Shown here one piece after another: positions 36,260 through 57,605 of a DNA stretch of 64,000 bases. The stretch lies in the NCBI RefSeq assembly GCF_009759685.1, contig NZ_CP046654.1:1116001-1180000 (forward strand). Reading direction: 5' to 3'. The stretch's first letter is position 1. Each line of letters starts with the position of its first letter. Made by a program: the position numbers and the translations under genes. The notes under the pieces were generated by a model. It saw only the letters and a list, made by a program, of their open reading frames with translations, was not told the origin of the DNA and searched no databases. The stretch is from Acinetobacter baumannii. GTDB taxonomy: Bacteria > Pseudomonadota > Gammaproteobacteria > Pseudomonadales > Moraxellaceae.

Positions 36260-36299
36260 GGCTAGCATAAATGCCTATGACCTACCCCTCCTGCTAGCC
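36260..36299 (-). promoter_or_regulatory. Leader hairpin with a Shine-Dalgarno sequence in its loop
   Basis: Perfect eight-base arms GGCTAGCA (minus-strand 36299-36292) and TGCTAGCC (36267-36260) enclose a loop that starts with GGAGGGG. The exporter ATG lies 11 bases beyond the second arm. The loop also contains a short out-of-frame ATG (CTA GCC AGA follows). This may be the expression platform of the riboswitch. Confidence 0.5.
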
Positions 36300-36313
36300 A
36301 AATATCATAAAAT

Positions 36314-36456
36314 GATTGCAGAGTGGTAAATCAAAGGTCTTGCCAACTCAGGAACGATGAGACGTTTAAGCTATGATGACCATGTTCTGTTGAACAATTA
36401 TGTTGACCATCACCTATTCACATTTGCTGTGAATAGCGGCTACTCCCCAATGAAGT
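36314..36456 (-). ncRNA. yybP-ykoY manganese riboswitch
   Basis: On the minus strand the leader contains the conserved TTGGGGAGTAGCC (about 36451-36438), a hairpin (CTATTCACA with TGTGAATAG), GGTCAACAT, and later AAGACCTTTGAT and CCACTCTGCAA. The two ends pair (TTG-GGAGT with ACTCT-GCAA) to form P1, and the GTCAACA and GACCTTTG segments correspond to the two loops that bind Mn2+ in this class. The element precedes a manganese exporter gene, its known partner in other bacteria. High Mn2+ should switch the gene on. Confidence 0.85.
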
Positions 36457-36496
36457 ATGGGCTTATTATATTCGACTAAATCTATTTTTCAAATAT

Positions 36497-55936: not shown

Positions 55937-55974
55937 GAGGTGCTCCAAATTCACAATTGAGGTTAAATTTTCGC

Positions 55975-56799
55975 ATGATACCAAAGGATCAGTATCCAAG
56001 TGATGTAAAAATTCTTCGAGTCGTTTCCATTAACGTAAATGGCTTACGTTCTTCAGTGACGAAAGGCTTACTTGAATGGTTAGAACAATCAGATGCCGAT
56101 GTCGTATGCATGCAGGAAAGCCGCATTACCCATGAACAATGGACTGAGAAATTTAGACCCGAGGGATGGCATACCCATCTCTTTCCAGCAGAGCGTGCAG
56201 GCTACGCAGGTACTGCAATTTATAGCCGCTTACCCTTTGTCTCTATTAAAGATGGTTTAGGGTTTGAATTGGCCGATAGCCAAGGCCGCTTCATTTCTGC
56301 CGAATTCGATTTAGGTTTGTCACATCCCGTACATATTGCATCATTATACTTACCTTCAGGCTCAAGTGGTGAAGAAGCGCAAGCACGTAAAGATTTATTT
56401 TTAGGTGAATACGCCAAAATCTTGAAACAATGGCGTGATGAGAATAAGTCCATCATTATTTGTGGCGATTACAACATTGTTCATAAACGAATTGATATTA
56501 AAAACTGGTCTGGCAACCAAAAGTCTTCTGGCTGTTTACCACATGAGCGTGCTTGGCTTGATCATATTTATGATGAACTTGGCTATGTAGACACCTTCCG
56601 TGTTGTAAGAACAGAAGCGGAATTGTATTCATGGTGGTCAAATCGCGGACAAGCGCGTGCGAAAAATGTAGGTTGGCGTATTGACTACCACGCATGTTCA
56701 CCAGACTGGAAAGCGCGCACTGTAAATGCATGGGTCTATAAAGATCAATGGTTTAGTGACCATGCTCCAGTTATTATCGACTATAAAATTCAAGAATAA
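55975..56799 (+). CDS. xth: Exonuclease III-family protein (Crc position, catalytic residues kept)
   Basis: 274 residues from ATG 55975. EEP-fold motifs: SINVNGLRS (Asn), CMQESRI (metal-binding Glu), [24 protein letters not shown] (Asp and Asn), and [10 protein letters not shown] (catalytic Asp-His). In Pseudomonas the gene beside pyrE is crc, a homologue that has lost several of these residues and acts in Hfq-dependent catabolite repression. Acinetobacter baylyi also has a crc gene reported here. This protein still has a full set of nuclease residues and Crc-like family stretches ([28 protein letters not shown]). So it may be an active exonuclease III, a moonlighting Crc, or both. Confidence 0.82.
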
Positions 56800-56892
56800 G
56801 TGAACACATGTTCACTTACATTGTCGTTTTTGCTTACAACACATGTCGCTTTTGAGTATTTTTCTTACACATGTTTAACGGCATTATAGCCC
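56800..56892 (+). promoter_or_regulatory. Upstream region of the GGA-rich RNA, with palindrome and CTTACA repeats
   Basis: TAAGTGAAC and GTTCACTTA (nine-base perfect arms, four-base spacer, 56797-56818) overlap the xth stop codon. CTTACA occurs three times (56815, 56833, 56864). The last could also be a -35 region, with TATAGC near 56885 as a weak -10. Confidence 0.4.
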
Positions 56893-57048
56893 CACGGCAC
56901 AGGGAAGCAGTCAGGATGACGCAAAAGGATAGGACGCCGTAGGAAGATAAAATAAACTTAAGATAAGTTTATTTGCAAGGATGTGACAATGGACGTTGAA
57001 ATGAGACCCGCATGATCAGGATGATTAAATGCGGGTTTTCTCTTTTCT
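56890..57048 (+). ncRNA. Candidate CsrA/RsmA-sequestering small RNA
   Basis: No reading frame covers this stretch. It holds eight GGA triplets in 119 bases (56903, 56914, 56927, 56932, 56942, 56979, 56991, 57019). Two are in CAGGATG, the CsrB repeat sequence. GGA motifs lie in hairpin loops: GTC-AGGAT-GAC (56910-56920) and the terminator loop. The terminator has CCCGCAT (57007-57013) paired with ATGCGGG (57029-57035), then TTTTCTCTTTT. ACGGC (56894) pairs GCCGT (56936), enclosing the first GGA cluster, and a perfect ten-base stem AATAAACTTA/TAAGTTTATT (56951-56973) separates two domains. This is the architecture of RsmX/Y/Z and CsrB/C RNAs. Acinetobacter has GacS/GacA and CsrA, but I know of no described RsmZ homologue at this place. 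Confidence 0.6.
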
Positions 57049-57254
57049 ATCTCTTATTTTTTGCGCTACGTTCTTTTAGTTTTTAATTTATTCTTATTAA
57101 GCTCATTATTACCTTGTCTTATGACAATAACATGACATTCTTTATTGTTTTAATCATTATTTTTCATTTGTTTTAAAAGTATCTGTATAAAGTAGTGCTC
57201 AAATGCATTTTGGGTTAGGCTGTGTGTTCTTTCTTTTTGACATGGTCCGATAAA

Positions 57255-57605
57255 ATGTTAAAAATTTATGGTATTAAAAACTGTAACTCGATGAAAAAAG
57301 CATTTGATGCTTTACAAGCAAAAGGTTTGAGCTACGAATTTCACGATTATAAAAAACAAGGGATCGATGCTGATACTCTAAAAATCTGGCTAAAAGAAAT
57401 TGGACAAGATACGGTGCTCAACAAGAAAGGTACTACGTGGAAAAAACTATCTGAAGAAGAACAAACGCGTGCTTTAAGCAGTGAAGATCATCTTATTGAG
57501 GCGCTAATTGCTCAGCCAAGCTTAATCAAGCGACCAGTTCTACAGACCTCTAAAGGGTTTCTTGTGGGCTTTGATGAAACGGCCTATCAAAACTTAAGCG
57601 CATAA
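57255..57605 (+). CDS. ArsC/Spx-family protein (YffB-like)
   Basis: 116 residues from ATG 57255. A thioredoxin-like fold of the ArsC family: MLKIYGIKNCNSMKKAFDAL with a single Cys at position 10, DYKKQGIDADTLKIWLKEIG, NKKGTTWKKLSEEE, and PSLIKRPVLQTSKGFLVGFDE near the end. This matches YffB-type proteins, which are not true arsenate reductases. The function is unknown, perhaps glutathione-dependent thiol reduction. It is far from any ars genes. Confidence 0.85.
   Translation: MLKIYGIKNCNSMKKAFDALQAKGLSYEFHDYKKQGIDADTLKIWLKEIGQDTVLNKKGTTWKKLSEEEQTRALSSEDHLIEALIAQPSLIKRPVLQTSKGFLVGFDETAYQNLSA

Follow-up and report, generated by a model that had tools for sequence, protein, structure and literature searches.

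A conserved GGA-rich RNA gene candidate between crc-like and arsC-like genes of Acinetobacter, a probable CsrA-titrating regulator

The RNA encoded between a Crc-like and an ArsC-like gene of Acinetobacter baumannii is very probably the product of a stand-alone gene for a CsrA-titrating RNA, belonging to a multi-gene set that would be switched on by GacS/GacA. The RsmX/Y/Z functional class, i.e., that of the CsrA-titrating RNAs, is the most likely assignment on the basis of the sequence data presented here. In the proposed mechanism, the eight GGA of the RNA, two in hairpin loops and six mostly open, would bind CsrA; the mRNA targets of CsrA would be freed by this binding, and the set to which the RNA belongs would, as a set, respond to GacS/GacA. 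We infer the transcription of the RNA, its binding to CsrA, the titration and the control by GacA from the evidence that follows.

Organization and GGA content of the crc-arsC intergenic locus

The window, that is, the whole 64-kb stretch of DNA that was analysed, corresponds to positions 1116001-1180000 of contig 1 (C1) in a two-contig genome of 3.99 Mb. The two genes flanking the stretch 56890-57048 lie on the same strand, and the features of the locus, in window positions, are the following:

55957..56799, plus strand: upstream ExoIII/Crc-like gene, from the ORF list; start codon uncertain
56797..56818, no strand assigned: TAAGTGAACA-CA-TGTTCACTTA, a conserved inverted repeat that separates the Crc-like gene from the promoter
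56821..56838, plus strand: GacA box position, here TTGTCGTTTTTGCTTACA; right half CTTACA retained, left half decayed
56882..56887, plus strand: -10-like hexamer CATTAT, 43 nt past the box position; GCATTAT columns at least 90%
56894..57041, plus strand: candidate RNA gene of about 148 nt; start estimated; eight GGA; intrinsic terminator at the end
56894..56940, plus strand: 5' domain, with the closing stem ACGGC/GCCGU (56894-56898 with 56936-56940)
56910-56920, plus strand: 5' domain hairpin GUCA-GGA-UGAC inside the closing stem; GGA at 56903, 56927 and 56932 unpaired
56950..56974, plus strand: central hairpin, retained in structure and variable in sequence, without GGA in the window copy
57003..57041, plus strand: intrinsic terminator with an apical hairpin AUCA-GGA-UGAU that resembles a CsrA site
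57222..57605, plus strand: downstream ArsC-like ORF, from the ORF list; translation more likely begins at an inner codon near 57258

The names given to the flanking genes in the original prediction agree with the ORF translations, and its description of an intrinsic terminator with CAGGATG in the loop is accurate, the terminator lying at 57003-57041. The RNA was also said to lack an open reading frame; by a generous test, an open stretch of at least 40 codons occurs in only 1 of 70 loci. A consensus promoter scan gave no promoter in the region of 56882..56887, where a consensus-type -35 element is absent. The inverted repeat at 56797-56818, the halves of which covary in several loci and species (e.g., L027, L037, L039; AGTGTACA/TGTACACT), may be an mRNA-end hairpin or an operator. 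Elsewhere in the window, a manganese riboswitch of the yybP-ykoY family (RF00080, 57.6 bits) lies on the minus strand at 36264-36460.

The GGA triplets start at 56903, 56914, 56927, 56932, 56942, 56979, 56991 and 57019. On recounting, eight GGA indeed fall in exactly 119 bases (56903-57021), and the two announced CAGGATG are present with starts at 56912 and 57017. This is the GGA-densest 119-base segment of the 64 kb, eight GGA being found in 1 of 63,882 such segments on the plus strand and in 0 of 63,882 on the minus strand. Shuffling of the 159-base stretch itself reached eight GGA in 83 of 2000 cases when dinucleotides were preserved and in 18 of 2000 when mononucleotides were; two CAGGATG arose in none of 3000 dinucleotide shuffles. 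Because eight GGA arise this often by local dinucleotide shuffling, GGA density was rejected as proof of function; the count alone is modest evidence, and conservation decides. The statement that several GGA lie in hairpin loops holds clearly for two of them (56914 and 57019, unpaired probability 1.0) and was generous for the other six, with unpaired probabilities of 0.57-0.93. As in CsrA-titrating RNAs, multiple exposed GGA are thus present, eight with unpaired probabilities of 0.57-1.0, and they are conserved.

Conservation, secondary structure and synteny

Searched at the DNA level, 70 of 199 genomes from the family were found to contain the RNA locus; the 70 aligned loci comprise 64 from Acinetobacter and six from outside the genus. 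With the covariance model R1, built from 36 sequences that consequently match by construction, and with stricter filters, a copy was found in 77 of the 199 genomes, namely 65 of the 66 sampled from the same genus and twelve from other genera (g5, g8, g10, g12 and g7, the last with one weak match at E 0.03). The single Acinetobacter genome of the 66 with no R1 copy is G028. An exact-pattern scan of named genomes yielded at least 118 stretches, and the 80 of these that were listed belong to Acinetobacter, Alkanindiges and one Pseudomonadota assembly. Four copies occur in one genome (G007) and two, about 580 bp apart, in another (G011). In the genome of the strain itself, an R1 search at E up to 10, in which 150 of 1366 candidates were scored, returned the window copy only.

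Seven of the GGA are retained in 69-70 of the 70 aligned loci and the eighth, at 56932, in 64; in a wider set of 58 copies the corresponding values are 56-58 and 44. Identity averages 99.2% in the GGA columns, a value that none of 20,000 permutations equalled, and 84% in the remaining 42 unpaired columns (central hairpin excluded), of which 12 are also invariant. The original prediction would have been abandoned had the GGA triplets not been conserved in orthologous regions; the identity of their columns, together with the covariation reported below, is in its favor.

The stretch 56890-57048 folds at -42.5 kcal/mol (z -2.98). In the best fold starting at 56890 the 5' closing stem of the comparative structure is not formed and the 5' domain pairs otherwise, whereas a fold starting at 56894 gives the comparative structure including this stem. 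For one relative, L069, the fold is no better than that of shuffles (z -1.20; 22 of 200). When the 58 copies were aligned to R1, changes on both sides were observed in 17 of the 23 pairs and 98.5% of the cells were paired; on none of the five measures was the real value reached by any of 500 shuffles, and slid versions were 35-46% paired, all in an alignment that is fitted to R1 and leans towards its structure. In an unfitted alignment of 36 sequences, both-side changes occur in 5 of 23 pairs. The central hairpin, which is not part of the R1 structure, was extracted from 69 of the 70 loci (L047 was missed by the pattern) and folds in all 69, with a mean of -7.5 kcal/mol against -2.1 kcal/mol after shuffling; its sequence drifts, and for a few copies taken singly 7-15 of 100 shuffles fold at least as well. 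The six loci from outside Acinetobacter (L066-L071) carry a GGA in the loop of this hairpin. Both the absence of any shuffle at the level of the R1-fitted alignment and the folding of the central hairpin indicate a secondary structure under selection, and hairpin covariation with retention of the GGA, which the original prediction had proposed as a check, is what was found.

These data also bear on the possibility of a base-pairing RNA of the Hfq type, in which the GGA would be incidental or would pair with mRNAs. Such an RNA could well end with a terminator and show conserved single strands beyond the GGA, as do the invariant columns mentioned above, but the highest conservation lies on the GGA, these stand in the loops of covarying stems, and the GacA boxes of the relatives together with ten similar RNA candidates (see below) fit the Rsm pattern; we consider this alternative improbable.

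With regard to synteny, the RNA is flanked by the Crc-like gene upstream and the ArsC-like gene downstream in 65 of 80 loci, two of which (L001 and L002) are a single place; one of the two neighbours was seen at five loci, and at ten the fetched stretch contains neither of them; the divergent copy of genome G101 is not beside crc. The frequent location between two co-directional genes would be in agreement with a cis element, either derived from the 3' UTR of the Crc-like gene or acting as a leader or attenuator of the ArsC-like gene. This explanation is disfavoured because of the ten loci without the neighbours and the multiple copies in G007 and G011, and as a general one it was rejected on synteny; against it stand also a conserved -10-like element and box position proper to the RNA, and a terminator placed about 180 nt ahead of the ArsC-like ORF. 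It appears slightly less probable still than base pairing of the Hfq type. By sequence and synteny, the locus would rather be a stand-alone non-coding gene with its intrinsic terminator. A non-functional intergenic stretch, GGA-rich by composition or chance as the 83 dinucleotide shuffles might suggest, is contradicted by conservation and covariation and is hardly credible.

GacA boxes, protein partners and further candidate RNAs

The CsrA gene presumed by the original prediction was found in one copy; it encodes 84 residues, of which residues 1-57 match solved CsrA with few differences. A GacA-like regulator scores 266.8 bits, the best of 20 matches, under the curated cut-off of 280. Within the family, 191 of the 199 genomes have CsrA and 194 have GacA; because both are nearly universal, co-occurrence with either does not discriminate and was discarded as evidence. 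On rich media, CsrA is reported to be essential in A. baumannii (PMC12802169), and in A. baylyi a phenotype of gacA or gacS loss is described as dependent on csrA, in a model that supposes sequestering non-coding RNAs and leaves them unnamed (PMC12455638).

The GacA/UvrY box is given as TGTAAGN6CTTACA (PMC3171408, PMC11837529). At the box position of the window copy, TTGTCGTTTTTGCTTACA scores 4.7 bits, compared with 21.3-24.9 bits for the ten boxes used for the matrix, and 13 of 63,983 window positions, this one included, score at least as high. A strict GacA box was consequently rejected for this half-site, and GacA control of the window copy is doubtful since half of the box has decayed. Over the 70 loci, the box position exceeds the random 95% level in 24, among them the six outside the genus, and the right half C[TCG]TACA is retained in 62. 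The six copies outside the genus (L066-L071) have the form TGTA-G-N6-C-TACA with 19.1-22.5 bits. Among eleven further copies, seven carry a box 70-71 nt before the R1 start, one with a changed last base; one of the seven, L083, is a divergent RNA in an Acinetobacter genome. No box match was obtained for the other four, among which are the weak L085 and the two G011 copies. Of all 17 copies inspected beyond the main Acinetobacter set, 13 therefore have a GacA box at a fixed spacing, which suggests that the ancestor of the Acinetobacter copy was GacA-driven. Together with the GGA conservation and the covariation, these boxes support the original proposal of a regulator of the RsmX/Y/Z type, as far as sequence can tell.

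In the genome of the strain, the pattern TGTANGN6CNTACA has 13 matches against 2 for the reversed control, a ratio that is partly post hoc, the pattern having been generalised after a two-mismatch list (189 forward against 165 control) without useful enrichment. Ten of the 13 sites lead to GGA-bearing RNA candidates with three to eight GGA each, and a -10-like hexamer is seen by eye about 42-44 nt past the box at these ten sites (unclear at 1747617). The boxes of the ten candidates start at:

C1, minus strand: 1079936, 1466334, 1467514, 1468183, 1572380
C1, plus strand: 1747170, 1747617, 1822665, 2240806
C2, plus strand: 2635

The direction of each candidate was picked by its GGA and terminator. 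A loose terminator scan accepted nine of the ten, the hairpin at 1822665 being present with a poor T run; the strong hairpins in the folds weigh more than this permissive scan, which likewise reported a terminator in 9 of the 16 remaining site-directions, where 0-3 GGA are present. The terminator loops hold CAGGATG in six candidates, CAGGACG in 1822665, GGGA in 1747170 and no such motif in 1747617 and the plasmid copy. Four of the ten, folded apart, gave z values of -4.26 to -6.95; the GGA of the ten are not all exposed in the folds, least so in the plasmid copy. Three of the candidates, near-identical and box-driven, lie within 2 kb at C1:1466146-1468130 (L104, minus strand), with small genes between them. 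The sites 1029, 3223112 and 3394119 do not fit the RNA-candidate pattern; the first is a perfect TGTAAGN6CTTACA (C1:1029-1046) that is followed by no GGA-rich RNA in either direction.

A second model, R2, was made from seven of the ten candidates, three of them near-identical, and shows both-side changes in 9 of 27 pairs. It has matches in all 41 sampled genomes of the genus, one to fourteen each at E up to 0.01; their total of 270 overstates the number of RNAs, and some of the weak matches are to the terminator palindrome read from the opposite strand. Two genomes, G221 and G224, have weak matches only (best E 0.0036 and 0.0024). Over the 41 genomes, boxes number 316 against 113 in the control and are above the control in 39, with fewer in G225 and G185. 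The window RNA had been put forward as the missing piece of the system; it is not a single piece, being one of about eleven candidates in the strain.

The candidate on contig 2 (C2:2635-2836; L105, L252), on a pMAC-like plasmid, has a full box and three GGA, none of them in the terminator loop, and the element is identical to A. baumannii plasmid pMAC over the 251 bp compared. It matches 309 plasmid records, 308 of them from Acinetobacter and 252 covering at least 80%, which were typed as mobilizable (205), non-mobilizable (101) or conjugative (3). The chromosomal-type RNA matches 424 records of the plasmid collection, 78 over at least 80%, some of the records being chromosome-sized. Among four plasmid examples viewed, pMAC, pTS11291 and p5SAAc573 carry box, GGA and terminator, and L251 has an R2 match with no box match in the stretch scanned. 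Toxin-antitoxin genes adjoin the copies of pMAC and pTS11291 (relE/parE-like and higBA, respectively), and mazEF lies about 900 bp from the copy of p5SAAc573. A pMAC-type RNA together with a sulfate permease gene was also seen in an entry (L253, PP799044.1) that bears the label of a partial phage genome and may be plasmid or host DNA.

A wider scheme can be proposed tentatively, and we would give it somewhat less than an even chance. The strain would possess about eleven sponge RNAs with GacA boxes or box-derived sequences, an unusually large array that is partly tandem, with one member carried by a small plasmid whose type is widespread. The crc copy would be the old genus-wide core, slipped from strict GacA control; it could hold CsrA titration at a constant minimum, to which the other and mobile copies would add a signal-dependent part. 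If the plasmid copies are true, mobile elements may act by RNA on the global translation control of the host; a plasmid CsrA homologue acting on this control, RsmQ, is known (PMC9928087).

Relation to known Csr and Rsm RNAs

At the gathering threshold, no Csr or Rsm family of Rfam was found in the window. The top sub-threshold match of the window RNA is rsmX (RF02144; 19.8 of 56 bits, E 0.11), and RsmY was found neither at gathering nor among the matches listed with E of at most 10, a list that omitted one overlapping match from this clan (CL00106, to which RF02144 and RF00195 both belong). Of six relatives searched, L069 matched RsmY (RF00195; 21.8 of 57 bits, E 0.27) and five had no Rsm match. 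By score, the window RNA is not a member of Rfam rsmX or RsmY; this does not speak against the function since Csr RNAs are described as usually without sequence conservation (PMC11882849).

The original prediction knew of no described RNA partner of CsrA in Acinetobacter. This stands for experimental work, no such report of a CsrA-titrating RNA in Acinetobacter being among the literature matches listed from a collection with few preprints and subscription journals, but not for predictions, two RsmA-regulating RNAs having been predicted in A. baylyi ADP1 (Fakhry 2017, Table 2, PMC5568370). These share the genus and the predicted role with the RNAs described here, and the lengths of 119 and 139 nt given by their predicted ends are like those of the box-driven RNAs, but their gene orientations (-><-<- and <--><-) do not fit the window locus, whose A. 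baylyi counterpart runs in the same direction as the genes on either side. The same article mentions that RsmA-regulating RNAs in ADP1 had been predicted earlier still, and this earlier prediction may be the crc-linked locus or another. On the sequence data, the crc-linked RNA is best described as a new, genus-wide representative of a kind already known, with a larger candidate set behind it. One genus-wide core RNA and a box-driven set thus provide candidates with coordinates for the gap between Gac and Csr, and make the Gac-Csr link in Acinetobacter directly testable.

The likeness to Pseudomonas RsmX and RsmY lies in a similar length (the Rfam models have 114 and 121 positions), in GGA placed in loops and open stretches, in the terminator at the end and, for the relatives of the window RNA, in the GacA box upstream. 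In contrast, the scores are far below gathering, the sequence is otherwise different and the box of the Acinetobacter copy is half-decayed. RsmZ is a further Pseudomonas RNA beside RsmX and RsmY. The occurrence of several Rsm RNAs in Pseudomonas is documented (PMC8395346). With CsrB and CsrC of Escherichia coli and the Csr RNAs of Shewanella and Pseudoalteromonas, the window RNA would share the GGA repeats and the logic of titration; CsrB1 and CsrB2 of Shewanella are reported to carry a GacA box (PMC3171408), Pf3 of Pseudoalteromonas to have nine GGA, and CsrB and CsrC 22 and 14 GGA, respectively (PMC11882849), compared with the eight of the window RNA.
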